Part shown: positions 11,241 through 44,225 of the stretch, in pieces
Numbering within the stretch: the stretch's first letter is position 1
Layout: each line of letters begins with the position of its first letter
NCBI GenBank assembly: GCA_964023275.1
Contig: OZ029927.1
Span: 16,725,165 to 16,789,164, forward strand
Length of the DNA: 64,000 nucleotides
Direction: 5' to 3'
Source: Norana najaformis
Lineage: Eukaryota > Annelida > Clitellata > Crassiclitellata > Hormogastridae
Position numbers and translations under genes: made by a program
The notes under the pieces: generated by a model
Database searches by the model: none
What the model was told of the DNA's origin: nothing
Seen by the model: the letters and a program-made list of their open reading frames with translations, nothing else

Positions 11241-11317
11241 AAAACCGTCAAGCTTCTTCCTCATCATTGCCATCTAAGTGGTCAATATGTTCTTCGCTGC
11301 CACTGTACATACTGCTA

Positions 11318-11985
11318 TCACCCCCACCAACATCATCATCCCACTATCACCACCACCAACATCATCATCCCACTATCACCACCACCAACATCATCATCCC
11401 ACTATCACCACCACCAACATCATCATCCCACTATCACCACCACCAACATCATCATCCCACTATCACCACCACCAACATCATCATCCCACTATCACCACCA
11501 CCGACATCATCATCCCACTATCACCACCACCGACATCATCATCCCACTATCACCACCACCAACATCATCATCCCACTATCACCACCACCGACATCATCAT
11601 CCCACTATCACCACCACCGACATCATCATTCCACTATCACCACCACCAACATCATCATCCCACTATCACCACCACCAACATCATCATCCCACTATCACCA
11701 CCACCAACATCATCATCCCACTATCACTATCACCAACATCATCATCCCACTATCACCACCACCAACATCATCATCCCACTATCACCACCACCAACATCAT
11801 CATCCCACTATCACCACCACCGACATCATCATCCCACTATCACCACCACCGACATCATCATCCCACTATCACCACCACCAACATCATCATCCCACTATCA
11901 CCACCACCAACATCATCATCCCACTATCACCACCACCAACATCATCATCCCACTATCACCATCACCAACATCATCATCAACAATG
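11318..11985. repeat. 29-bp minisatellite, about 22 copies
   Basis: The unit begins CATCATCATCCCACTATC and ends in CACCACCA(A/G). Copies differ mainly by one A/G position (CCAAC or CCGAC). Because 29 is not a multiple of 3, all frames cycle. Confidence 0.96.
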
Positions 11986-20106: not shown

Positions 20107-20395
20107 TTAATTCTTGTTCTTCGTCTCGGATGCTTCACCCGAAGCAGCAGCAGCAGCGGCAGCCTTCTCATCCGCAGCCTGGGCGGCAAGGATTTCTTCC
20201 TCCTCCATGACCTTCTTGTGACGGACCTCGTAGAGATGGCGGAAGTAGTCCTTGATGGCCGTGACGGTGTCCTTGGCCCGGATCACGTCCGCCGTCTTCT
20301 CGGCGATCATCACCTGCGTCGCGTATGTATCTCCGCTCGGACTGGACGGGATGACCGAGGCGTCAACGACCCTCAAGCCCCTCAGTCCACGCACC
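20107..20395 (-). CDS. GMC oxidoreductase exon 11 (last coding exon)
   Basis: Acceptor TGTGTCGCAG ends at 20396, entered in phase 2; stop TAA at 20109-20107. It encodes [16 protein letters not shown], then [19 protein letters not shown] and a tail with EEEE, a run of seven Ala and a terminal TKNKN. VVDAS and MIAEK are typical of the GMC C-domain. The position normally occupied by the second active-site residue (second N of GNxNAP, His in glucose oxidase) is Tyr. The tail extends about 55 residues past the usual family end and is low complexity. Confidence 0.93.
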
Positions 20396-23300
20396 CTGCG
20401 ACACAACGACACGACCACGCCATCAGCAACACAACGGTGTGTTTTGGAGCTAAGAAGGGACTCATATCGAGCAGGATGCAGGGGCACTTTATGGTTTTAA
20501 GGTGTTAAAGGGCCCACTGTACTTTGCGCCGTTAGGGCCCCAAGGTGTTTACACCGAATACACCGGTGTTAATATCTCGGTGTACGCTCTTCTAGGGGCC
20601 GCCCAGACTATGGCCTCACGTGATGTAACCACACTCTTCACTGGCTCCCCGTCCATCAGCGTGTCCACTTTAAGATCCTCTCCCTCATGCGCAATTGTGT
20701 TGTTGGCTCTGCTCCCCTTTACCTCATTGACTTCTGCACTTTGGTCTCCTCGTTGCCGGGCCGCAGCACCCTTCGCTCGGCCACTCAGGATCTCCTGTTT
20801 GTCCCTCGAATGCGAACCACTGCTGCCCAGTCCAGAAGCTTTGCCTACGTTGGTCCCACTTGCTGGAATCGTCTCCCTCGAGAATTGCGACTTGAGCTCC
20901 TTTCTCTTCCCCTCTCAGTGTTCCGCAGGCGCCTGAAGACTGTACTGTTTAACAATGATTTTACTTTTTCGGGTCGGAAGCACCTCTGTTGAGTTTATTC
21001 TGTAAGAGGCGCTTTATAAATCTCAATTTACAATTACTATTACAATTACAGGGTGTTAAAGGGCACATTGTACTTTGCGCCGTTGGGGCCCCAAGGTGTT
21101 TACATCGAATACACCAGTGTTAATATCTCGGTGTACGCTCTTCTAGAAGCCCGCCCAGACTATGGCCTCACGTAATGTAACCAAGGTGTTAAAGGGCGTA
21201 TTGTACTTTGCGTCGTTGGGGCCCCAAGGTGTTTACACCGAATACACCGGTGTTAAAAGCACCTGTGACAGCATGGCCTCCGAAGTAAATCACAAATCGA
21301 TCCTTATGGAAGAAAGTGCCTCAAGACGTTCGTTTATTGCCTAGTCCAATCGTAATCGTAATCGTAAACTCGAAATTTCTAAAGATCTACACAAAAGCTC
21401 GGCGTATGGCACCAGCTTATTCACGAGTGCTGAATAAATTCCAACGCGTCAAACCCAATACGCAATATATCACAGATGGCCAAACGAATTTAAGTCCAGT
21501 TAGATTGATTTGACCTATTTACTTATCGACCTATTGACCTGATGACCTTTTGACTGACCTTAGCGTATGATCAACAACAGCCGTGTTATCGTTTGGAGCG
21601 CCCATTCGACAGGTGCCAACCGGAGCCATACCGGAAGTGGACAGGTGCCTCAGATGACACTCGATGTACTGTTCCGTGTAGTTGCCGAACTTGGCGCATT
21701 CGGGCAGAAGGCGGTTCGTCAGCTGGAACTCCCAGTCCTTGAAGCTCTTCGTGTTGACCAGTTTCCGAGCGAAAGTAAATGCTGCAAACAAAAACAGAAA
21801 TTGTTCGCAATACTACAAGTCGTAATTTAATGAATATTGTCGCCAGGAGAAAATTGTTTAACAAACTTGTTAGTGGAACAGTGTATTTCTTTTAGTTTTT
21901 AGGTGAAAAAAGCGGAAGAAAAAGTGGCTGGCATGCATAGTATCGAAGCAAGAGAAGAGGGAGGGTATAAAGCATATAAAGATGTAGGGTAAGAAGGTGG
22001 TTTGTATGAAGAAGACGTGAACGAGTTTGGAAGGTGAATGTGACGAAAATAATAAGAACGAAGACAAAAGGGAAGGATCTATGAGGTGATGAAGACGAAA
22101 CAAAACGATTGGGAAATGGGTGAAGGCGAGGCAAGTGAGGGGCAGGGGAAGAGATAAAGAGGACAAGTAGAAGGAGGAGAAGGATAAGGAGAAATTAGAG
22201 TAAATAGAGTTTGCAGGAGAAGAAAGAATAGTAGAACAAGGATGTTTAGACGCACAAAGATGAGAGGAGGTTTGCGCTGTTGCTCAACATTGTTGTTTCT
22301 TGTGTCGCACTAGATATGCGGTGTTGTGTCGTATTGTATTGTATTGTATTGTAAGGAGGAAGAAAAGAAGGCGAATGGTGCAATGAATGAAGAAACAGAT
22401 GAGGACAGAAAAGAATAAGAGAAGGGTTAGAGGGCATACCCTTGGCTAGTATCTTTGCGTCGACATCAAGGTAAGGTAAGGTAGGGTAGATTAGGGTAAG
22501 GTAGGGTTTGGTAGGGTAGGGTAAGTTAGGGTAAGGTAGAGTATGATATGGTTGGGTATGGTATACAGCAAGAGCAAGGTAGAGTACTGTTGTTGAATTG
22601 TTTTTAGCAGTTAAGTGAATTGTTCGTTGGCTATTGAGATTGTGAACGAAGAGATGGAGGAGTGCGAAGATGAGAAAGCGAAGGGTGAAAGTGGTTACCC
22701 TCGGCTAGTATCTTCACATCGACTTCTTCAGCCAGGTAGTTGGGGTTAATGAGCGGAGGGTCGTCGGGGTTGTTGGATCGCAGTCGCAGGGTGCCTCTGC
22801 TCTTCGGGTGAAGAAGAACCGGGAAGATCGTGATACCCTCTCGGCTCAAAGGACTTCCATGGATCTCGTCCCACACCTACAACAAGCAGTTCACTCGTCG
22901 TGACAGCGTATATCTGTATCGCCGAAGTAAGAACAAGAACATCAACCCTATATCAATTTCTTAGTCTCTCTCTCCCCATCTTTTCCGCAAGCGCTTCAAG
23001 TCCTTCTTATTTCCCAGTGTTTCTGGGCTGGCGGGCCGGGAGCGCCTCTGAGGAGTCTATCTTGGAGTGGCGCTTTATAAATTTTCGATTACATTACATT
23101 ACATATACCCCATCACTGTCCAATCCCCTCACCAACTCTCCATCCCTTCTTCGAACATCTTCCGCATCTTTTCTGCACGTAAAACACTTTACTCTTTTGG
23201 TTTCTGCTCTGCTCCACCTGCAAATGTCAGCGACGGCTCACTAGCTCCATCTGGTGGTCGTTGCCGTAGATATTCTCGGCGCTGGCCGTACACACTTGCA

Positions 23301-25742
23301 TGCTGTCAGCACCCTCTAATTTAGGAGGCAGAACCCGTCAAAAGCAATTCGTCGATTCTGGCTGATGCACTGTGTTTCCACGACGAAGCAGGTGTTCAAT
23401 GCCAGCCGGAGACTCTGGCGCCGGAAGTGGGGCTTTCTCGTTGACCTTCGGGGTCAGAATTAGGCAAATTTTGCTTATCACGTGTACAATCGTACATCAC
23501 ACTGACACACACACACGCGCACACACACACACATATGCGCACACACGCGCACACACACACGCGCATGCACACACACAACACGCACATGCACACACACAGA
23601 CGCACACAAGCACATACACAAATACACACCCACATAGTTACATGTATTTATCACGTGTACATATGTGGTGTAGGCCTATGCATATGTGATCTATATATGT
23701 ATATATATATGTATATATATATGTATATATATGTATATATGTGTATATAAATATACATGTATGTATACACAGTCTAGGTCTTCTATCAGACAGATTGCTT
23801 ATCTATGATGCTGTTTTTGTAGCTGCAGGTGCGCGTGTGTCTAGACCCAACTTTATTTATTAGCCGAGTCTTAGAAGTAATGGCTGCATACAGCAGACAA
23901 ATGTGTAGCTTTGACTGCTTTCACATGCATCAATTGTGTGGATATCTAAGCACAACGAACATAGTCAACGTGGCATGTGCAGTTATATATATATATATGT
24001 GGTGTATTCATGTGTGTGTCTATGTAAGTATGTATGTATGTATGCATGTATGTATGTATGTATCTATGTATGTGTGTATGTATGTATGTATATGTGTATA
24101 TATGTATGTATGTATGCATGCATGTATGTATGTATGTATGCATGTATGTATGTATGCACGTATGCATGTATGTATGTGCGTATGTATGTGTGTGCATGCT
24201 TGTATGTATATAGCTTCTTTTAAGAATGTCTGTATACATATAGACACTTGATATAGCTTCTGTTATGTAATGCACAATATCTCATCACAGTATAAAGTAG
24301 AACGCTATTGGCATATTGCTGTGGGTGACTGTGGCAGTTGTCCATAGTTACTAGAACCAGCTGTCGACATTAATGGCTGATCTTTGCAGACATTACTTTG
24401 GACAGTGCTTTGTTTTCTGGCCTAGAACTCCCTCCTATACACGATTCATTCATTCATTCATTCATTCACACACACACACATACATATGTACATACATACA
24501 TATTACATATGCATACATGGGTACATATATATGTACATAAGTGCATGCATACATACATACATACATATATACACATATACATACATACATACACACATAC
24601 ATACATACATACATACATGCACACACATACACAAATACATACTGTACATACACAAACATACACACATACATACATACATACATGCATGCATGCATGCATA
24701 CATACATACATACATGCACACACATACACACATACACAAACACACACGTACATACATGCACACATGCATTCATACACACATACATAAGTACATGCGTACA
24801 TACATACACAAACATATACACAAGTAACACAAACAGCCATAAACACATACATACACAGCCATACACACATATACACACAGCCATACACACACGCACACCG
24901 TACTTAAGCACACATAGATAGGTTGAACCGATAGACGGAGACCCACTTACTTCGTTTTTGATGTTCAGCTGATCGGCGTCGTATGCATTTGGATTGGAGA
25001 CAAAGTGTAGAGAGACGAGTGGGAACTTGATCGTCGGTGGTTGATGACGCAGGCGGATGAAAGCGATTGCCTCGCGAAACCTAGGACTTGCTTTCATACC
25101 TTTAATGTCACGAAAGTGAACGACACGCATCAGTGAACACGGAAATCTTTCATGTACTTTCATTGTACTTTGCGCCGTTGGGGCCCCAGGTGTTTACACC
25201 GAATACACCGATGTTAAAAGCGCCGCTGACGGCATGGCCTCCGATGTAATCACAGATCATTCGTTTATTGCCTCGACTAATCGTAATCGTAAACTCGAAA
25301 GAAGCAGATATAAACAACCGAGGCATAACAGTCAAAAATTCAGATTCAGGTGTACTGACATTGCGCGCGTTATAGGTGATTTAATAAAAATAAATTAATT
25401 AATTTAATTAATTGATTAAGCACGTAAATAGGGCAATGGAGAATATTAAAGAGACAGTGCAGATCGAATTCCTAATTGATAGCAACAATTTATGGAAATG
25501 AAGCCTACTGACCAAATATTAGAGTAGGCCTACATGGATTTTGCAGGTGACAATTGTCAACTGGAATTACTGCTCATCAGTTTGAAAATAATGCATGAAA
25601 TCTTGCATCGAAGCGCATCCCTTGGCTAATCTAATTTTCTGATTTACATATCGCAGTTACATTATGATGGCATTTTAATACCTGTCCAAAAACGGTCGTT
25701 TCAAGGTCGGTCTTATGTCCTAAGAGTAAGAGTGAGTGTGTG

Positions 25743-25811
<69 letters not shown>

Positions 25812-28800
25812 GAGAGAGAGACAGAGAGAGACAGACAGAGAGAGACAGAGAGAGAGACAGACAGACAGACAGCAAAAGAGGGACACAACCTTCCTTCCAA
25901 TACCGTCTCAAGTTGATCGTCATTTTAGATGAGGGATTAACTTCACACGATCATTGATTGATGTCCAGTGTTTTGGGCTATGAAAGTCTTAACATGAGAT
26001 CAGATCCGATCAGCCGGGTCAGATCAGGTCAGACCAGACCAATCAGACCAGACGAGATCAAACCACATCAAACCAGACTAAATCATACTGCAGACTATTT
26101 CCACCAAATCAGATCAGACCAGACCAGACCAGGCCAGACTAGACTAGACCAGACCAGACCAGGCTAGACCAGACCAGACCAGACTAGACCAGACCAGGCT
26201 AGACCAGACCAGACCAGACCAGACTAGACCAGACCAGGCTAGACCAGACCAGACCAGACCAGACTAGACCAGACCAGGCTAGACCAGACCAGACTAGACC
26301 AGACCAGACTAGACCAGACCAGGCTAGACCAGACCAGGCTAGACCAGACCAGACAAGACCAGACTAGACCAGACCAGACCAGACCAGACTAGACCAGACC
26401 AGACAAGACCAGAGACCAGACTAGACCAGACCAGACCAGACCATGCACACACGACCAGACCAGACTAGACCAGATGATCGGCCACTTGCCAGTTCCGAAA
26501 AGCGAGTAAGCCCAGGCGGAGAGGAAGTTCTCCGCCCTGGCGGGAGTTATGGTAAAACCGGTGTAGGGGGAGTACATTTCGATTCCATCGCCCATCACGT
26601 GATCCTGGAGGTTCTCTCCCACCGGAAGGTCGGCAACCAACGGAATCTGCGATCATAAAAACCAGTATATGTATGCACGAAAACAACACCTAATTAATAT
26701 ATCGCCTTTCAGGTACCTCATAAAAACGCTGCAGGAATGACTACCTAATTGATATAAACGAGTGCGTTTTCCAGGCACTTTCATAACGACTTCTTCAGTG
26801 ACTTCTACAGCACCAACATGATCCTAAATGTTCTACAGTTCTCAAATGTTCTAGAGATAATGATCTGACTGTTTAAAATAACTTTATCGTCGGTTGTTTA
26901 GCAAAACTAAACAGACATTATGTGTCTCTGAGAGAACTCAGAATAAATCAAGTTGTGGGTAGACCCAGCATTATACATCAGCGGAGTCTAAGAAGGAATC
27001 TCTGCGCACAGCAGACAAATGTGTAGCCTTTAGTACATGTGTAGTTATTTAAATATATATGTGTGTTTGTTCCTGGCTATTTGTAAAGCGCCTTTTAAGC
27101 ATGTCTATATTTATCTATAAACTTGATGTAGCTTCTATTAAGTAACTCACAACATATGAGGAATCCTCCAATTAATAATGAATGATTAGAAACTTCTAAT
27201 GCGCCAGTGTCTAATGCACAAGGCATCAACCGATGGCGCACCAAAGCCTCGCCACAATCAGGTTACTATCCAGAAGACCAGTCTACAGGACAAAGAGGCA
27301 GCCTATGATGGATAAGCAATTTGAAAGAGGTTTTGGGTCTTTGAAGTACTTCATTATTACCTTTCCCAGGATAGTACAGCACTACCGCAGCACTAGAGTA
27401 CTTCATTTTACCTTTCCCAGGATAGCACAGCACTACGGTACCACTGGAGTACTTCATTATTACCTTTCCCAGGATAGCACAGCACTGTATACAAAGCGCT
27501 ACATATCTAAGTGTACGTCGTTTGACTTACCTTCAGTGAGTGGATGTGAGCTTTTGGACCGACGCCGGATAGAAGCAGCAGCTTAGCAGATCCGACCGTT
27601 CCAGCGGACAGGATGACCTCGTGGTTGGCACGAACTAGTTTCTGCTGACCGTCGTGCTTGTAGACGACTCCAACTGCCTTCTTACCCTCGAATACCACCT
27701 ACAGTACACAGCGGAAGAAAGACTGAACAGATTTCTGATTAGATTATGCTCAGGACTCCTGGAATTAGGACTGAAATAGGAATTATTCTAAGAATGGGAA
27801 TAGAATTAGAATTGAAATGTGACCTTTTGAACTGAATTAGAATTAAAATCAGGAATTCGTTTTAGAACTGAAATATCATTGCTCAGGAGAGATTAGATTA
27901 CGTCTAGGTTTGATTAAGACGAGATTAGATTAGATCAGGGCTATATTAGCTTGGCCCATTTTTGTCCAAAATATTGACTTTGATGTAAATTCATATATGG
28001 AATTATTAGTAGTAACTGCCTTCTTACCTTCGAATACCACCTACAGTACGCAGCGGAAAAACAACACGACTTAAACGATTTCTGATTTGATTATGCTCAG
28101 GAGAGATTAGATTAAGTCTAGATTTGATTTGGACGATATTAGATCAGATTAAAGCTATATTAGATTAGCCCACTTTTGTCCACTACGGTAGCACTTTTTG
28201 TCCACTACTTCATTATTACCTTTCCCAGGATAGTACAGCGCTACCGCAGCACTGGAGTACTTAATTAATGCAGCACTAAAGTATCGCAATACTTCACGTA
28301 CTGTGATGCTTCAAATTATTGACTTTGATGTAAATGAATACATGGAATTATTAGTAGTAGCCCTGACAGCAAACATCATCACAAGCTTCCTCGTCGGTGC
28401 TGCATTAAATGCCTTGCTACGTCAAATGGTATTCTAAAGAAGCATCCAGGTTGCGATTCGCAGGGCTCCTCTCTGCTTAGCTCTATTTTGTTATCTGATC
28501 TGTGCTTCACAAATTGTCTTATAGTAGTAGTAACATCAGCAGCAGCAGCAGCAGTACTAACAATAACATTAGCATTAGTATTCTAATACAACACTAACAG
28601 TAGTAGTAGTAGCAGTAGTATTGATGATGATGATGACGACGACGATGACGATGACGATGATGATGACGATGATGATGATGACGATGATGATGACGATGAT
28701 GACGATGATGATGATGATGATGACGATAACAACAACAATAATAATTATAGTAACTAGCCAGTCCAAGAAAGATGTAGGCCTTAATTTTTGTAATCCTGAG

Positions 28801-31800
28801 TGATCACATGCACCTCTAGTAGAAATAATAAAACAGAAAATAATCCACACACCGAGTATACTTCCCCAGTCATCACCCTCAGCCCTCAGTACTCTTCCGA
28901 TCCCCTCTGATCCCCCAAATCTCACCCTGCAAGGGAGGAGTGGCAAAAGAGTGGCAAGTACCTTCTGAGCGACAGCGTGGGTGAGGACGTGCAGGTGGCT
29001 GAGTCCCATCGACCGTCGCAGGAAGGCGTTGTAGGTGCTCCACCGCACTCCGAACCGGATCGTCGCCTGCGCCGGAGCCCAGCCTGAAAGGTCAAGGGCA
29101 TCCGTTGGAAAGGCCAAGGTCGTCGGCATAACAGAAACCACAAAGCTCGTAATCGTAATCGTAATCCCGAAATATCTACAGCGCCCAACGCAAGCCATGT
29201 CACGGGGACCAGCTTATTCACAGACGCTCAGTCAAAACAAAATTGATAGGCAAAAGGGTTCGGTTCCAGGTCAAGATCCAAGAGTCAGGCAGAGAGACAG
29301 ATGTTATGAAAATGTTAGAGAGTAAGGTAAAGGTAGGGCAATCTAAGGAGGGATAAGAAAATGAAAGGTGAGCTGAGAAAGATAAGGTAAGGTAATAACG
29401 TCAGGCAATAACATTAGGTAATAATAAAAAGGTGAGGAAAATTAAAGTAAGGTAATATAAAATTCTGTAAGTTAGTACAAGACAAGGTACGGTAATAGCT
29501 CATCACTTGAAGGCGCCACTGTAAGCTGTAGTTCTCGGAGGCTTGACCCAAGGGTCAAAGGTTATTAAGGTTGAAGCAAAACACAACGGCATGAGCACTC
29601 CAAAAATTAAAGTAAGGTAAGGTAAAATTGTGTAAGTTAGTATAAGATAAGGTAAGGCAATGGCTCATCACTTGAAGGCGCCACTGTAAGCCTTAGTTTT
29701 CAGAGGCTTGGCCCAAGGGTCAAAGGTTATTAGGGTTGACGCAAAATGCAACGGCATGAGCACTCAAACAGCCAAACAAACTTTCCCTACAAGCTACACT
29801 ACTTAACAATGACTTGACAGATTTGAATGGCATAGTGAGATTCGAACCCCAGACGCACAGATGAAAGACAGCCGAATTTCAGTCTGCCACAATTCGTGTA
29901 ACAAAGGTCAAGGTTATCTAAGGAGCGTGGTTCATCAGCGACCTAAAAAAACCAGCGAGAGATTCATGCTTCACCGACGACAGATCCAATTTGTGTTCCT
30001 GCCATAACTGACACGATGCAAACGTTGGAAAAAGCTGTAAGCATAATGTAGACATCGACGTTGGGATTTGGTCTCGTTTGGCCTCACCTGGTTTCACCTT
30101 GTCTCACCTTGCCTCACCTGGCCTCGTCAGGCCTCACCTGGCCTCACCTCTGTACGTTCGGTGCGAAGTCGATACATGACGCACATCTCTGACAAGTGCG
30201 TAAAGAAAACAGCGCATGAATACTTTGATACACACGGATAGGTCCTACTTTTGATACACAGACAACGAGATGCACACACACACATCTATCTATGCATACA
30301 CATATAATTGTACATAAGGGCAAGTTTGCAGCGCAAACAAATATATATATACATATATAAGTATGCATACATAATATAAAAGATACACGTGTGTGCCCAA
30401 CATATATTATATATATATATTGGGCATATATCATCATCATCATCAATGTCCTATATAAATGTTATATATATATGTATATATATATATTAATGCTGATGTT
30501 TTGAATTGCATATTTCTACAGAGTGTATTATGTACGTATCTGGGCATTTCTATAGCGCCTTTTAATGATTTTAGAGATTGTAATCTCGAGATTTCTACAG
30601 CGCCCAAAGAAAGCCAAGTCGCGGGAACCAGCTTATTCACAGGCGCTCAGTCAAAACAAAATCGATAGACAAAGGGGTTCGGTTCCAGGTCAAGATCCAA
30701 GAATAGGTATTATGTCGATGCCGAGTGAGTGAATGACGTCATGCTACCGAATTGCGTCTTTCCGTTGTAGTCTCTTTGTTTCAATCCGATTTCCTTGAAG
30801 CAGAGTTCGATGATCTTGTGCAGCGTTGAGAATCCGACATCCGACACAGACATCCTTCCTCCAAACCCATGAAAGACTAGAAACAAAAAACATCCTGTTG
30901 TATCCTCTCCGTCCTTCGATTCCTCTTCGTCATCCTGTTCCTCATCCTCCTCCTTTCTTCCTCGTCTTTGTCTTCCTTTCCTTCCTCTTCCTTCTTCTTC
31001 CTACTCTTACACCGTCTCCTTCAAGTCCTCTTCTTCCTCTTCTTTATCCTGTTCCTCCTCCTCCTTTTTTCCTCATCTTTACCTTCCTTCCCTTTCTCTT
31101 CCTCTTTTTCCCACTCTTCCACCTCCTCCTCCTTCTTTTCTTTCTCTTCCTCCTCCTTCAATTTCTCTTCTTCCTCCTATTCTTGCTGTACTTCCTCTCC
31201 CTCTCTTTCTCATCTTTATCTTCCTCTTTTTCTTGCTCTTCTTCCTACTCTATCATACATACATACATACATACACATATACATATGCATACATGCATAC
31301 ATACAAGTGACAGTAACTGCATTATTTTTATTGTCTATCTATCAAAGTTCTGTCTGTATCAGTGTATGCTGTTTCCCGACCAGACACTCGATGCATTGTG
31401 GCCATTATAGAGGGAGAAGCGTACCTGTCTTGACGAACTCTCCCTTCCTCTGGTCTTCGGACTTGATGAAATACGGAAGGACGTCCTTGTAGGCCCAGCC
31501 GTGGGCTCCGTTGTTGGCCCACTCGTCGAAGTCGAACCGGTTACCTCGTAAGTAGAGCATGTAGTTGATGTTGCTCGTTCCTCCCAGGCCTTTTCCGCTG
31601 TGCCAAAGGCACGACTAGATTTCAGAACACGGCGTAATTATATGAGTGACTAAGACCACAACGACTAGAATAGATAATGGGAAGAGGAAGAATCAGGATA
31701 AGATTTGTGGAAGAGGATTGTATTCAGTTTTGAGTGAAAGACCTGCGCAGAGATTGCAAGGGGTGAGGTGTTGGTGAGTTCGTAGGATCGGTCAGATAAC

Positions 31801-32892
31801 TGTCGTAATTCTGGCCAGAGTTTATTCCAGAGGGGTGTAGCAGTGATGGTTACGAAGCGATTTCCAAATTCGAAGGATGAGGTGACTGGAGGGCGGAGAA
31901 TTGTTAGGACAGAAGAGGAGCTGGTTGAACGGAAAGCAAATAACTAGTGAAGATAAGAGGGCTGGGAGGATTGAAGTCTGTTTTAGGTAAGTGATAGGAC
32001 TTTTACTCTATTTGTTCAGGTATTTTTAAGCCAGTGCAGTGGTTTGAGAACAAGATTGATGTGATGTTGTTTGACAATTTTTATACTAGCACAAGCCATA
32101 GACTTGGCTTTGAGAAAATGCTTCGATAAGCCTGACTGAGAGGAATTATACTTTTGATGGTTTTATCGTAATCGTAAATTCGAGATTTCTACAGCGCCTA
32201 ACGAAAGCTAAGTCGCGGGACACAGTTTATTCACAGGAGCTCAGTCAAAACAAAGTCAACAGGCAGGAAGGGTTCGGTTCCAGGTCAAGGTCCAAGAGTC
32301 AGGCAGGCAGGAACCAGCATATTCATAGGCGCTCAGTCAAAACAAAGTCGACAGGCAGGAAGGGTTCGGTTCCAGGTCAAGGTCCAAGAGTCAGGCAGGC
32401 AGGAACCAGCATATTCATAGGCGCTCAGTCAAAACAAAGTCGACAGGCAGGAAGGTTCGGTTCAAGGTCAAGATCCAAGAGTCAGGCAGGCAGACGGCTA
32501 CGGTTGGTGGTGTTTGAAATTGATACCTGATTCGTGTGTCCCTTGCAGGCGAACCTCTGCGGTGTGGTCTGGTACATCCAGTCGAACTCTCCAGGTCCTC
32601 GTTCGACGTCACCTCTGACGACATCGGCGAAGACTGGTATGTCGATATCGGGGTCGGACGTTGGCTTACCACCTGCCTCAATCAGCAGGATCGTCACGTT
32701 CCGGTCCTCGGCTAACCGGCTGGCCAGGACCGCTCCCGAGGTTCCGCCACCGACTGAAACAAACACCACCCGCAGAACCTCAGTTACATCTGGTGTAACC
32801 ACCTGTGTCTCGGATGTGTGTGCGCCGTTATTGTCGTCGTTATCATCATGCAAGTATGTATCAAAGCACTTAATGTAGCGCCTTTCAGGATC

Positions 32893-34636: not shown

Positions 34637-35317
34637 CCCATACATACATAAATATATGTATACATAGATGCATACATGCATAAATGCATGCATATATCAC
34701 ATACATACATAAATATATGTATACATACATACATACATACGTACATACATACACACGTATATGCGTATATACATACGCACATACATATATACACACATCC
34801 ACACATGCATACATGCAGAAGAACATAGAGGCCAGTGACCGCTTTCATTCCACGTCTACCATGAGCGTTCTCGCTATACATGTACATCAGTTACATGTCT
34901 TCTCCTTCCAACCGTTAGTCCTAGCTAGTACTTTATTCGAAGAGAGAGAGAGAGAGACAGGGAGAGAGACAGAGAGACAGAGACACAGACAGAGACAGAG
35001 ACAGACAGAGACAGAGACAGAGACAGACACAGACAGACACAGACAGACACAGACAGACAGAGACAGAGACAGAGACAGACAGAGACAGACAGAGACAGAC
35101 AGAGACAGACAGAGACAGAGACAGAGAGGCAGAGAGACAGAGACTGACCGATGACGTAATCGTAGGCCGGAAGGAGATCCTGTTTGATGAACTCCTTGAA
35201 GAGATCTGCTATGCCGAGGTAGCGATAGGCGACCAGGACGACTCCAATCGCCATGAACGTCGGTATGTGCCTCGCGACCATCGTCCTCTCTTTCTCGGTC
35301 TCGGTTATGCCCTGCAT
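20107..35317 (-). CDS. GMC-family FAD oxidoreductase, complete coding gene of 11 exons, probable altered active site
   Basis: Eleven minus-strand exons join with matching phases into a 666-residue model. GMC enzymes oxidise alcohols or aldehydes with FAD. Residues 18-40 form a membrane anchor. [14 protein letters not shown] (52-65) and LIEAGG (80-85) are the dinucleotide fold and ribose-binding Glu. [19 protein letters not shown] (139-157) starts a full match to GMC signature 1. [17 protein letters not shown] (310-326) nearly matches signature 2. [11 protein letters not shown] (342-352), LLHPKSRG (458-465) and VVDASVIP (580-587) are also family motifs. The catalytic His of the HPxGTxxMG motif is Ala549 ([10 protein letters not shown]), and the second catalytic Asn/His is Tyr595 (GDTYAT). 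The frame is otherwise intact, so this is not a decayed pseudogene; a pseudoenzyme or changed chemistry is inferred. The acidic and Ala-rich C-terminal tail (632-666) is unusual. Promoter and 5' UTR were not identified. Confidence 0.93.
20499..21262 (+). repeat. Repeat E, three roughly 130-bp tandem units, split by a LINE
   Basis: Units start AAGGTGTTAAAGGGC at 20499, 21053 and 21183, each with TACTTTGCGCCGTTGGGGCC-like and GTGTTTACACCGAATACACC blocks. The first and second units are separated by the LINE at 20636-21050. A further single unit is at 25157. Confidence 0.88.
20636..21050 (+). mobile_element. LINE (L2/CR1-like) 3' end
   Basis: The plus frame reads [59 protein letters not shown] and [10 protein letters not shown]: the conserved C-terminus of L2/CR1-like ORF2. 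The 3' end is GAGGCGCTTTATAAATCTC followed by (ATTACA/ATTACT)n. It sits between two repeat E units. Confidence 0.92.
21263..21440 (-). mobile_element. Diverged LINE-A 3' fragment next to repeat E
   Basis: At 21350 the minus strand has the (ATTACG)3 tail and TTTCGAGTTTACG, then a weakened version of the GAATAAGCTGG region. The composite repeat E plus GTTTATTGCCT plus LINE-A tail recurs at 25157-25305, so the two loci share history. Confidence 0.7.
21559..21781 (-). CDS. GMC oxidoreductase exon 10
   Basis: Acceptor TTTGTTTGCAG ends at 21782 and donor CTAAG|GTCAGTC starts at 21558. Entry is phase 1 and exit is phase 2. It encodes [58 protein letters not shown]. This is the C-terminal substrate/cap region with the HPxGTxxMG motif. 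The codon at the catalytic His position is GCT (Ala), read clearly from the strand; the rest of the motif (PVGTCRMG) is conserved. Confidence 0.95.
21782..22437. other. GMC intron 9, 3' part: purine-rich, no gene
   Basis: Plus strand is purine-rich over 21895-22260; a (GTATT)n patch is at 22328-22352. Confidence 0.6.
22438..22475 (-). pseudogene. Intronic copy of the 3' end of GMC exon 9
   Basis: Minus strand GATGTCGACGCAAAGATACT then AGCCAAGG|GTATGC matches the last 30 or so bases of exon 9, including the donor junction (exon 9 has GTCGATGTGAAGATACTAGC and CGAGG|GTAACC). The flanking purine-rich DNA also resembles the exon 9 flank. A diverged tandem duplicate about 257 bp downstream of the real exon end in gene orientation. 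Confidence 0.75.
22468..22575. repeat. Degenerate (GGTAA/GGTAG)n
   Basis: GGTAAGGTAGGGTAG variants; not a telomeric array. Confidence 0.85.
22699..22876 (-). CDS. GMC oxidoreductase exon 9
   Basis: Acceptor GCTTGTTGTAG ends at 22877 and donor GAGG|GTAACC starts at 22698. Entry is phase 0 and exit is phase 1. It encodes [34 protein letters not shown] and [27 protein letters not shown] and [10 protein letters not shown] are strongly conserved in GMC proteins of the glucose- and choline-dehydrogenase type and lie in the substrate domain. Confidence 0.95.
22977..23105 (+). mobile_element. LINE 3' terminal fragment
   Basis: [12 protein letters not shown] remnant of the ORF end, then GGGAGCGCCTCTGAGGAG, TGGCGCTTTATAAATTTTCG and (ATTAC)n. 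Same tail layout as the LINE ending at 21050. Confidence 0.8.
23106..23500. other. No supported feature (GMC intron 8)
   Basis: Pyrimidine-rich early part, then mixed DNA. Confidence 0.4.
23501..23765. repeat. (CA)n array, then (TATG)/(TATA) tract
   Basis: ACACAC and GCGCACAC units to 23640; ATATATGTATAT units at 23690-23765. Confidence 0.93.
23985..24225. repeat. (TATG)n array
   Basis: GTATGTATGTATGCATG variants; pseudo-ORFs only. Confidence 0.95.
24440..24905. repeat. (CATT)n, (CATA)n and (CACA)n array
   Basis: About 460 bases, ending 45 bases from the donor of GMC exon 8. Confidence 0.95.
24951..25099 (-). CDS. GMC oxidoreductase exon 8
   Basis: Donor AACGAA|GTAAGTGG starts at 24950 (phase 0). 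The preferred acceptor is CATTAAAG ending at 25100, entered in phase 1, giving [36 protein letters not shown] and [23 protein letters not shown] and LHFVSNP are family motifs. An alternative acceptor CCTAG just inside would drop six residues (MKASPR) and need a different upstream donor. The preferred choice keeps the usual spacing between GTG and EAIAFIR. Confidence 0.88.
25157..25305 (+). repeat. Repeat E unit joined to a LINE-A tail
   Basis: ACTTTGCGCCGTTGGGGCC, TTTACACCGAATACACCG, then TCGTTTATTGCCTCG and (TAATCG). Parallels 21183-21380. Confidence 0.78.
25306..25735. other. No supported feature (GMC intron 7)
   Basis: AT-rich. A word CATCCCTTGGCTAATCTA at 25616 faintly resembles the exon 9 end but is too short to call. 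Confidence 0.4.
25748..25875. repeat. (GA)n and (CAGA)n microsatellite
   Basis: About 30 GA units followed by GACAGA units. Confidence 0.97.
26000..26477. repeat. (CCAGA)n pentanucleotide minisatellite
   Basis: CCAGA units with CTAGA and GGCTAGA variants in higher-order blocks. In gene orientation it is UCUGG-rich and begins 12 bases after the exon 7 donor. Confidence 0.95.
26490..26646 (-). CDS. GMC oxidoreductase exon 7, probable GC donor
   Basis: Acceptor GATCGCAG ends at 26647, phase 0. It encodes [39 protein letters not shown] and [23 protein letters not shown] is a family hallmark. At the 3' end the best donor is ACTG|GCAAGTGG, a non-canonical GC donor with otherwise ideal bases, exit phase 1, joining to exon 8 as FGTGMKASPR. 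The only nearby GT (GGCAA|GTGG) is weak and needs the shorter exon 8. Confidence 0.88.
26650..27180. other. No supported feature (GMC intron 6)
   Basis: AT-rich DNA without recognisable repeat. Confidence 0.45.
27183..27245. mobile_element. SINE D-related end fragment
   Basis: TCTAATGCGCCAGTGTCTAA and CATCAACCGATGGCGC match the D-family end region in diverged form. Confidence 0.55.
27340..27490. repeat. Repeat H, about three tandem 50-60 bp units
   Basis: GTACTTCATTATTACCTTTC, CCAGGATAGTACAGCACTAC; reverse complement of 18895-19030. Confidence 0.88.
27531..27698 (-). CDS. GMC oxidoreductase exon 6
   Basis: Acceptor GTGTACTGTAG ends at 27699 and donor CTGAAG|GTAAGTC starts at 27530; phase 0 at both ends, 56 codons. 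It encodes [38 protein letters not shown] and [17 protein letters not shown]. The EVILSAG..S..LL..SGVGP block is GMC signature 2, with Ala in place of the usual Pro/Ser at one position. A tandem partial copy of the exon start lies upstream at 28014-28040. Confidence 0.95.
27667..28362 (-). repeat. Tandem segmental duplication, about 355 bp, containing the start of exon 6
   Basis: ACTGCCTTCTTACC, GAATACCACCTACAGTAC and GATTTCTGATT..GATTATGCTCAGG occur at 27671-27745 and again at 28015-28100. The far ends TTGACTTTGATGTAAAT..GGAATTATTAGTAGTA also recur (27975 and 28320). Copy 2 carries a repeat H insertion near 28200-28265. Confidence 0.85.
28014..28040 (-). pseudogene. Truncated intronic copy of GMC exon 6 start
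   Basis: Minus strand CTGTAG|GTGGTATTCGAAGG then TAAGAAGGCAGTT: the acceptor and the first 27 bases of exon 6, with one change. It then diverges into intron-like sequence. GAAG|GTAAGA inside could act as a donor, so a 13-base decoy exon is conceivable. Confidence 0.8.
28545..28745. repeat. (AGC)n, (AGT)n and (GAT/GAC)n cluster
   Basis: Compound trinucleotides around 28545-28560, 28600-28620 and 28621-28730. Confidence 0.92.
28962..29083 (-). CDS. GMC oxidoreductase exon 5
   Basis: Acceptor CCTTTCAG ends at 29084 and donor CAGAAG|GTACTTG starts at 28961. Entry is phase 1 and exit is phase 0; 41 codons with the split one. It encodes [39 protein letters not shown] and QK. RWST..AFLR....NLHVLT is a conserved stretch of the FAD domain in GMC dehydrogenases. 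The exon is GC-rich against AT-rich introns. Confidence 0.94.
29148..29300 (-). mobile_element. LINE-A 3' end
   Basis: Minus-strand copy: tail (ATTACG)3 at 29148, GGGCGCTGTAGATATTTCGG core, GCCTATCAATTTTGTTTTGA. Confidence 0.88.
29330..29770. repeat. (GGTAA)n and a 165-bp tandem duplication
   Basis: GGTAA-type words 29330-29480. The block from 29459 (CTCATCACTTGAAGGCGCCA, GGCTTG.CCCAAGGGTCAAAG) recurs from 29624 at about 90 percent identity by eye. Confidence 0.87.
29830..29905 (-). mobile_element. tRNA-like SINE head
   Basis: Minus strand GTGGCAGACTGAAATTCGG, then TCTGGGGTTCGAATC. The B box GGTTCGAATC is good; the A box is degraded. Related to the head at 41464. Confidence 0.55.
30065..30155. 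repeat. (CCTCACCTGG)n decamer repeat
   Basis: About nine degenerate copies of GCCTCACCTG. Confidence 0.88.
30240..30500. repeat. (CA)/(TATA)-rich patches
   Basis: ACACACACAC near 30270 and long TATATA runs at 30340-30490. Confidence 0.8.
30578..30710 (-). mobile_element. LINE-A 3' end
   Basis: TGGGCGCTGTAGAAATCTCG on the minus strand, with the CGCCTGTGAATAAGCTGG region; ends 38 bases from GMC exon 4. Confidence 0.88.
30748..30876 (-). CDS. GMC oxidoreductase exon 4
   Basis: Acceptor TTGTTTCTAG ends at 30877 and donor TTCG|GTAGCA starts at 30747. Phase 1 at both ends. It encodes [39 protein letters not shown] and TQF. HG.GG...VSD and DYNG..Q are family landmarks of the substrate-domain entrance. 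It joins exon 3 through a Val codon and exon 5 through Gly, giving QFGWAPAQ. Confidence 0.93.
30900..31255 (+). repeat. Homopyrimidine (TTCCTC)n tract
   Basis: About 350 bases almost entirely C/T on the plus strand (purine-only in GMC gene orientation), then (CATA)n at 31256-31300. Confidence 0.93.
31425..31614 (-). CDS. GMC oxidoreductase exon 3
   Basis: Acceptor TGAAATCTAG ends at 31615, phase 0; donor AAGACAG|GTACGC starts at 31424, phase 1. It encodes [39 protein letters not shown] and [43 protein letters not shown] fully satisfies the GMC signature 1 pattern, where the loop contacts the FAD isoalloxazine. A second acceptor-like GGCACAG within the exon would break the phase and is rejected. 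Confidence 0.96.
31680..31975 (-). mobile_element. LINE-A ORF C-terminal region
   Basis: Minus strand reads [38 protein letters not shown], then [15 protein letters not shown]. This is the ...WN.L...LR......FKS.LKT.LF pattern of L2/CR1-like ORF2 ends. It identifies the many LINE-A copies in the window as LINE 3' ends rather than SINEs. Confidence 0.85.
32165..32510 (-). mobile_element. LINE-A 3' UTR with a 92-bp tandem triplication
   Basis: After the tail and core at 32165-32205, a 92-bp segment (CAGTCAAAACAAAGTCGACA, GGTTCGGTTCCAGGTCAAGG) occurs at 32219, 32311 and 32403. Ends 17 bases from GMC exon 2. Confidence 0.9.
32527..32753 (-). CDS. GMC oxidoreductase exon 2 (FAD-binding)
   Basis: Acceptor TTGTTTCAG ends at 32754, phase 1; donor AATCAG|GTATCA starts at 32526, phase 0. 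It encodes [58 protein letters not shown] and [24 protein letters not shown] is the FAD pyrophosphate loop and EAGG carries the Glu that binds the adenine ribose. The preceding YDYVI comes from exon 1 across a phase-1 intron. Confidence 0.97.
32890..33090. repeat. (ATC)n and degenerate (CCA)n tract
   Basis: Ten ATC units at 32893, then CTC/CAC/CAT words. Confidence 0.92.
33091..33475. other. No supported feature (GMC intron 1)
   Basis: Mixed unique-looking DNA. Confidence 0.45.
33480..33650. repeat. (CAGA)n array
   Basis: About 16 perfect units, then GAGACAGA and GGCAGGCAGG variants. Confidence 0.96.
33780..34115. repeat. (GTATTAT)-type array
   Basis: Repeats of TATGTATTATGTATG with ATCTATG and TTAATTATG variants. 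Confidence 0.93.
34251..34393 (-). repeat. Repeat F, left arm of an inverted pair
   Basis: Near-identical reverse complement of 36130-36273: shares CTCTAGAACATGGATGTTTT, AAAGGCGCTA and GGCAAAGCGCTGGTTTGCTG. The GGCGCTAGATAAGTG..TAATACATTATACATTTACG end looks like the LINE/SINE tails. Confidence 0.88.
34575..34810. repeat. (CATA)n array
   Basis: CATACATACATA with ATGC and ATAT variants. Confidence 0.94.
34935..35142. repeat. (GACAGA)n array adjoining GMC exon 1
   Basis: GA and GACAGA units ending six bases from the exon 1 donor; C/T-rich in gene orientation. Confidence 0.95.
35149..35317 (-). CDS. GMC oxidoreductase exon 1 (membrane anchor)
   Basis: Donor ATCG|GTCAGTC starts at 35148, phase 1. 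The first in-frame Met gives [19 protein letters not shown], and a second Met at 35281 starts [19 protein letters not shown]. The exon ends [14 protein letters not shown], the first strand of the FAD fold. [20 protein letters not shown] is a strong signal-anchor candidate. ACATGCAG|GGCATAACC overlaps the first Met and could instead be a splice acceptor, in which case the second Met or an upstream exon provides the start. Confidence 0.85.
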
Positions 35318-40490: not shown

Positions 40491-40704
40491 CCCGCAATGG
40501 CCATAGTTTTGTCATACACACTGGAAATGGCTAAATTCATGTAAACACGCGTATAGGCCTACATATGTATATTTAGTATCAATCTAACGATAAACGCGGT
40601 CCATACAAACATTGGGGCTATATGTATCTCAAACCTATATATAGCCTTATCGGCAAAATACATCTATATCGGCCACTGTATGTATATATAACCTGACTGT
40701 ATAT

Positions 40705-41216
40705 AGTACCGTGGGACTTTATAGGAGTAAATAGTACCGTGGACTTTGTAGGAGGAGTAAATAGTACCGTGGACTTAATAGGAGGAGTAAATAGTACCGT
40801 GGACTTTATAGGAGTTAATAGTACCGTGGACTTTGTAGGAGGAGTAAATAGTACCGTGGACTTTATAGGAGGAGTAAATAGTACCGTGGACTTTATAGGA
40901 GTAAATAGTACCGTGGACTTTATAGGAGGAGTAAATAGTACCGTGGACTTTATAGGAGGAGTAAATAGTACCGTGGACTTTATAGGAGTAAATAGTACCG
41001 TGGACTTTATAGGAGGAGTAAATAGTACCGTGGACTTTATAGGAGGAGTAAATAGTACCGTGGACTTTATAGGAGTAAATAGTACCGTGGACTTTAAAAG
41101 GAGTAAATAGTACCGTGGACTTTATAGGAGGAGTAAATAGTACCGTGGACTTTATAGGAGGAGTAAATAGTACCGTGGACTTTATAGGAGGAGTAAATAG
41201 TACCGTGGGACTTTAT
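40705..41216. repeat. 27/30-bp minisatellite, about 18 copies
   Basis: Units of GTAAATAGTACCGTGGAC plus TTTATAGGA, with or without an extra GGA, often in a short-long-long order. Both lengths are multiples of three, so one frame stays open (VNSTVDFIGG) without being a gene. Confidence 0.96.
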
Positions 41217-41289
41217 AGAAGTCTAGAGTTTACGATTACGATATATAGGCGAATGTGCAGGGAAACAACTACTGTCGTAATCGACGCTT

Positions 41290-43379: not shown

Positions 43380-44225
43380 GAGTATGCCTATAGGCCTACG
43401 TGCAAAGGCATGTTAAGCATGTCTATAGGCCTATGTGCAAAGTCATACTAAGTATGACTATAGGCCTACGTGCAAAGTCGTACTAAGTATGACTATAGGC
43501 CTACGTGCAAAGTCGTACTAAGTATGACTATAGGCCTACGTGCAAAGTCGTACTAAGTATGACTATAGGCCTACGTGCAAAGTCGTACTAAGTATGACTA
43601 TAGGCCTACGTGCAAAGTCATACTAAGTATGACTATAGGCCTACGTGCAAAGGCATGTTAAGCATGTCTATAGGCCTATGTGCAAAGTCATACTAAGTAT
43701 GACTATAGGTCTACGTGCAAAGTCATACTAAGTATGACTATAGGCCTACGTGCAAAGTCATACTAAGTATGACTATAGGCCTACGTGCAAAATCATACTA
43801 AGTATGACTATAGGCCTACGTGCAAAGTCATACTAAGTATAACTATAGGCCTACGTGCAAAGTCATACTAAGTATAACTATAGGCCTACGTGCAAAGTCA
43901 CACTAAGTATAACTATAGGCCTACGTGCAAAATCATACTAAGTATGACTATAGGCCTACGTGCAAAGTCATACTAAGTATAACTATAGGCCTACGTGCAA
44001 AGTCATACTAAGTATAACTATAGGCCTACGTGCAAAGTCACACTAAGTATAACTATAGGTCTACGTGCAAAGTCACACTAAGTATAACTATAGGCCTACG
44101 TGCAAAGTCACACTAAGTATAACTATAGGCCTACGTGCAAAGTCATACTAAGTATGACTATAGGCCTACGTGCAAAGGCATACTAAGTATGCCTATAGGC
44201 CTACGTGCAAAGGCATACTTAGGCA
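43380..44225. repeat. 35-bp satellite with internal hairpins, about 24 copies
   Basis: Each unit has GTCATACT-A-AGTATGAC (8-bp stem, 1-base loop), then TATAGGCCTA (palindrome) and CGTGCAAA. Variants include GGCATGTTAAGCATGTC, GTCGTACTAAGTATGAC, GGCATACTAAGTATGCC and GTCACACTAAGTATAAC. Confidence 0.97.

Follow-up and report, generated by a model that had tools for sequence, protein, structure and literature searches.

The window is a stretch of 64,000 nucleotides from the genome of the annelid Norana najaformis (contig OZ029927.1, positions 16,725,165 to 16,789,164), and it holds a gene for a GMC flavoprotein that runs on the minus strand from 35317 to 20107. The gene has 11 exons, whose junctions were placed from splice sites, phase and similarity to paralogues, and it encodes 666 amino acids with no internal stop. 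The preliminary description had located the gene at 20107..21781, an interval that does hold exons 10 and 11, while the gene itself reaches to 35317; its claim of eleven exons in phase and without a stop was reproduced when the 666-residue frame was rebuilt. Six other open reading frames of the window gave no Pfam match, and neither Rfam families nor tRNAs were found when the window was scanned for them.

Gene structure

Exon 1 (35149..35317) carries the start Met, a hydrophobic segment and the beginning of the FAD domain, and is similar to exon 1 of the paralogue C5. The dinucleotide-binding motifs VGGGTSG and EAGG lie in exon 2 (32527..32753) and GMC signature 1 in exon 3 (31425..31614); exons 4 (30748..30876) and 5 (28962..29083) are followed by exon 6 (27531..27698) with the region of signature 2, which is off at one position, and by exon 7 (26490..26646), which ends in a GC donor (CTG/GCAAGT). 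Exon 8 (24951..25099) encodes the block MKASPRFRE, invariant in the three-gene clade described below, with Arg396 in the column of Cys432 and His419 in the column of Arg451 of the algal photodecarboxylase CvFAP. The GMC_oxred_C domain begins in exon 9 (22699..22876), exon 10 (21559..21781) contains Ala549 in the catalytic-His column, and exon 11 (20107..20395) contains Asp593 in the second catalytic column, the residues Tyr595-Ala-Thr-Gln598, a clade-like tail (KDYFRHL) and the stop codon.

Nine of the ten introns are of the GT-AG type. Intron 7 is GC-AG; in C5 and C13b, the other two genes of the clade, its donor is GT. A CAGAC tandem array (26030-26474) adjoins this donor at 26490. Use of an alternative GT donor at 26466 would keep the frame, lengthen the protein by eight residues and leave exons 10 and 11 unaffected. 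Translation starts at Met1, or perhaps at Met13 (35281), where the match to C5 starts. The hydrophobic segment spans residues 18-36 (mean hydropathy 1.67) and is present in C5 and C13b too, which suggests that the protein is membrane-anchored.

Exon 3 and its flanking intron (31357-32142) are copied on the same chromosome at C15 ~15.8552-15.8560 Mb (L050-L051), with 91.6% identity over 795 bp; the copy lies ~0.9 Mb off, has a stop in the exon frame and is a dead partial duplicate. A dispersed element of ~130-145 bp occurs in introns at 29147-29292, 30577-30702 and 32165-32309 and again at C15 15.85 Mb, its copies being 82-92% alike.

Domains and catalytic columns

A His-Asn or His-His pair is the defining feature of GMC flavoproteins. 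The window protein matches both Pfam domains of the family, GMC_oxred_N with 154.2 bits (cut-off 23) and GMC_oxred_C with 120.2 bits (cut-off 24.6), and contains PROSITE signature 1 at residue 139, the signature pattern being taken from an excerpt of PMC12198266. Signature 2 fits except for a single position, where Ala replaces Pro or Ser; this mismatch is not decisive, since the pattern is also missed by the His-bearing paralogue C6 and by three of 19 homologues from prokaryotes or viral contigs. The NCBIfam cut-offs for choline dehydrogenase are not reached (400.7 versus 605 bits, and 339.8 versus 732.1 bits for TIGR01810). The FAD motifs VGGGTSG and EAGG and signature 1 are kept, as had been proposed from the letters, and judging by them the protein most likely binds FAD. 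With the GMC dehydrogenases and oxidases (PF00732 and PF05199; for example, the alcohol oxidase 8rpf and the choline dehydrogenase 9lq0), it has in common the fold as judged by sequence, the FAD motifs, the domain order and most invariant positions, but it differs from enzymes of the 8rpf and 9lq0 type in Ala instead of the base His, in Asp as the second residue followed by Tyr-Ala-Thr-Gln, in the N-terminal hydrophobic segment and in its tail.

In alignments, Ala549 falls in the column of the catalytic His of 8rpf, 8b7s, 9lq0 and 8rpg, which bears out the Ala that the preliminary description had put there, and CvFAP also has Ala in this column. The second residue of the pair falls on Asp593, corresponding to His in 8rpf and 8rpg, to Asn in 8b7s and 9lq0 and to Gln620 in CvFAP. 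Ala549 and Asp593 are 44 residues apart, the same spacing as in AAO (H502/H546) and CvFAP (A576/Q620), with residue numbers as given in an excerpt of PMC7824139. In the dehydrogenase NPEO-DH, the mutagenesis primers identify N507 as the first and N509 as the second Asn of SGNTN, and the N507A mutant is inactive while N509A is nearly normal (PMC3565318, in excerpt). Asp593 occupies the column of Asn507, the first Asn of GNxN, and Tyr595 that of Asn509. Both the alignments and these mutants rule out Tyr595, which had been named as the second catalytic residue. The claim that both pair positions are substituted can be kept in another form: by alignment, both are non-standard (Ala/Asp), Tyr595 being an additional, third substitution next to the pair, and the paralogue C13b keeps Asn at position 593.

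A three-gene clade within the genome

Genome searches for GMC genes returned at least 16 matches for 19 candidates, at least 14 for 15 and at least 50 for 54, and the genome contains at least seven GMC genes plus one fragment. Besides the window gene, five multi-exon paralogues were modelled, and the C10 gene was read as a single exon. Two of them, C5 and C13b, are full length and lie on other chromosomes; their identity with the window protein is 65.3% and 65.5%, compared with 37-43% for C13a, C8, C6 and C10. Exon phases are common to the paralogues except in C8, where exons 6 and 7 are fused; exon 1 of C8 was looked for in gene modelling and not found. The C10 gene (L027, C10:15399982-15401676) is choline-dehydrogenase-like and, unlike the multi-exon paralogues, consists of a single open frame of 565 amino acids.

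The His column reads Ala in the window protein and C5 and Ser in C13b, and His in all four of C13a, C8, C6 and C10. In the second column, the window protein and C5 have Asp and C13b has Asn, while Asn is found in C13a, C8 and C10. The His-bearing C6 (L026, C6:22576-22579 kb) has Ser in this second column. Tyr595-Ala-Thr-Gln598 is present in the window protein, C5 and C13b only, among the seven GMC genes of the genome. In a tree of eight proteins, rooted at its midpoint only and with its other inner forks partly unresolved, these three form one clade with support 100/100, a stem of 1.05 and tips of 0.23-0.27 changes per column. Pairwise dN/dS (NG86) is 0.120 for window-C5, 0.150 for window-C13b and 0.090 for C5-C13b, values that are rough because dS (2.19, 1.75 and 2.91, respectively) is near saturation.

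The eight aligned proteins have 90 invariant columns in common. At eight further columns, a residue invariant outside the clade is absent from it, and position 549 with its His is one of them. The core of the alignment has 555 columns. The clade does not vary in 326 of them, and at 73 of those 326 its residue is absent from the other five proteins. We tested whether these 73 columns are clustered, and they are not significantly so: the maximum of six in a 15-column window was reached in 3436 of 5000 permutations, and clustering of this Type II kind was therefore dropped as a proof that the active site is kept. Two patterns within the clade point in opposite directions. Relaxed catalysis is favoured by the variation at positions 548 (Met/Gly/Asn), 549 (Ala/Ala/Ser) and 593 (Asp/Asp/Asn), with flanks such as PVGTCR unchanged among the three. 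On the other hand, 16 successive residues (382-397), including Arg396, are invariant, as is the segment 595-598, and this speaks for a kept site.

The three genes are an old His-less GMC subfamily maintained by selection. Since His is lost in all three, identity is 65% and dN/dS is 0.09-0.15, selection keeps the flavoprotein fold without the standard base, and the earlier suggestion that selection maintains this flavoprotein is upheld. Recent decay private to the window gene is ruled out, as two paralogues have the His loss too.

The catalytic pair among homologues

A sample of 20 homologues was assembled, of which 16 were plasmid matches picked by hand, three came from contigs of the viral collection and one from a genome contig; L032 was left out, as only ~30 of its residues match. 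His occupies its column in 19 of 20 proteins, the second column is Asn and the Tyr595 column is Asn equally often, and the single exceptions are Glu, Asp and Met, respectively. Glu and Asp come from the same protein, encoded by a plasmid of Sphingobium sp. TomTYG73 (L037), in which the frame is intact and which, by sequence, represents an independent natural change of both pair residues; it differs from the window protein in being bacterial and in having an acidic pair instead of Ala/Asp. The residue before the His is Phe, Tyr, Trp or His in 20/20 homologues and Met, Gly or Asn in the clade. Because the sample is small and not random and its sole animal is this genome, these counts are no measure of rarity among animals.

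Scanning genome contigs with the clade alignment gave one homologue, with His, and no relative of the clade itself; the same alignment found no match in viral contigs, where a mixed alignment found four loci including L032. The clade motif strings were found in none of the paper texts searched, and the literature searched, from which subscription papers and supplements were excluded, yielded no report of an animal GMC group without His. An excerpt of PMC13076199 mentions inactive insect homologues of the hexenal isomerases in which Ala, Leu or Tyr replaces this His. Within the same literature, as far as its excerpts go, the departures from the GMC pair with a demonstrated function are the algal photodecarboxylases; in the moth isomerases, the chemistry has changed and the pair is mostly kept (PMC13076199, in excerpt).

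Discussion

The preliminary description inferred a lack of standard catalysis, which the known His-to-Ala mutants do not support as an established fact. In excerpts of PMC3565318, NPEO-DH H465A has a kcat of 0.63 versus 12 and of 1.3 versus 11 per second, i.e. 5% and 12% are kept; its flavin is reduced at least as fast (the rate is higher), and it is re-oxidation that suffers. The engineered motif YAPVGT, encoded by the primer, resembles the APVGT of the window protein, from which this mutant differs in having Asn507 intact. The moth hexenal isomerase MsHi-1 catalyses an FAD-dependent isomerisation, and its H521A mutant keeps kcat with a 25-fold higher Km, while N559A is inactive (PMC13076199, in excerpt). 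For the pyranose dehydrogenase AmPDH, H512A loses ~10^5 in kcat/KM, and the authors hold, in the excerpted text, that His512 is the only base. With kcat unchanged in one of these mutants and efficiency down 10^5-fold in another, the loss of His does not by itself imply a dead enzyme. By analogy with these three enzymes, a protein with Ala549 should oxidise alcohols slowly or not at all, but its flavin need not be dead.

With the gene intact and well kept, the window protein probably performs an altered chemistry or a non-enzymatic job. We tentatively favour the former: the protein would be an FAD-binding enzyme with altered chemistry, one of a distinct GMC subfamily of three paralogues. We suppose that a small residue (Ala/Ala/Ser) took the place of the general-base His before the three genes split or at about that time, and that the strand beside residue 593 was rewritten to Tyr-Ala-Thr-Gln and then fixed; residue 593 itself, the second catalytic position, varies (Asp/Asp/Asn). 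We infer that some catalysis is retained, and can only guess which substrate is used and what type of reaction takes place. Perhaps the proton of an alcohol leaves without a His acceptor, nothing but residue 593 and water assists hydride transfer, and the flavin, once reduced, is passed to a partner other than oxygen. Alternatively, bound FAD could serve a non-redox reaction in which an acidic or polar substrate is met by Arg396. The lepidopteran hexenal isomerases, likened here by their excerpted description, are animal GMC proteins with such FAD-dependent non-redox chemistry; the H-N pair is generally present in those Hi proteins that are active, unlike in the window protein. A bolder form of this proposal, which we regard as doubtful, is an animal subfamily, probably membrane-bound and without the His base, whose rebuilt flavin face (Asp/Asn593, Tyr595-Ala-Thr-Gln598, Arg396) would serve a reaction that is not alcohol oxidation, much as happened separately in the photodecarboxylases of algae and the isomerases of moths.

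Several observations count against altered chemistry, namely the near-complete loss of activity in AmPDH H512A, the variation of the key residues 548, 549 and 593 that is expected under relaxed catalysis, the clade-specific fixed residues clustered no more than by chance, and the roughness of dN/dS at such dS. The first two of them would agree better with a true pseudoenzyme, in which the FAD fold no longer catalyses and is kept for scaffolding, sensing or regulation, for example of those GMC enzymes in the genome that still have His. We consider this somewhat unlikely. It is in line with the loss of His in 3/3 clade members, with invariant flanks around the variable positions, with a long stem followed by constraint, and with the inactivity, in the isomerase assay, of several moth Hi homologues without the C-terminal His (PMC13076199, in excerpt). 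However, the clade-fixed 16-residue loop block of the substrate domain and Tyr-Ala-Thr-Gln beside the flavin suggest a kept ligand site, and the change from His to Ala by itself often leaves activity, at least in the excerpted reports on MsHi-1 and NPEO-DH. By sequence, a pseudoenzyme and altered flavin chemistry are both plausible. A conserved natural group of GMC proteins without His is evolution's own experiment on the role of the pair, through which a flavin reaction that needs no base, or a regulatory role for the fold, might come to light.

It is quite unlikely that the protein is an ordinary GMC alcohol or sugar dehydrogenase carrying out the usual reaction, with the base replaced by another residue or by water. 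The fold and FAD motifs are normal, NPEO-DH H465A still oxidises its substrate, and the Glu/Asp pair in the intact frame of L037 means that the pair is not absolutely fixed. However, Ala and Ser are not bases, residue 593 is Asn in C13b, and the aromatic or His residue that precedes the catalytic His in the homologues is changed in the clade as well.

A light-driven flavoenzyme resembling the algal fatty acid photodecarboxylase is most improbable. CvFAP (5ncc, 6zh7) has the GMC fold and, at the columns of Ala549 and Asp593, Ala and a second residue that is neither His nor Asn, at equal spacing. However, Cys432 and Arg451, which are the residues conserved in FAPs (PMC11664916, in excerpt), have no equivalents in the window protein, and membership in the photodecarboxylases is therefore ruled out. 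Moreover, the window protein is no closer to CvFAP (212.7 bits) than to ordinary GMC oxidases of the PDB (8rpf, 268.9 bits), and CvFAP ranks below several ordinary GMC enzymes.

Finally, an artefact (a decaying gene, a wrong exon 10 or 11, or a sequencing error) is barely credible: the exon model is sequence-inferred, the GC donor of intron 7 lies next to a tandem array and the chromosome carries a dead copy of exon 3 at another place, but exon structure and substitutions are repeated at two independent loci, the 11 exons have neither frameshift nor stop, and dN/dS is well below 1.

Other features of the window and genome

The Wnt family gave 100 exon matches genome-wide and none in 14 control genomes; 19 of the matches reach over the C-terminal half with E < 1e-40, which makes it a rather large set. 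Wnt genes are not known outside animals, so these matches mark the genome as that of an animal. The haemocyanin domain PF14830 of molluscs gave no match, a result of little weight because the control genomes gave none either. The window also contains long minisatellites at 11315-11978 (29-bp unit), 40699-41218 (30/87 bp) and 43381-44219 (35 bp).
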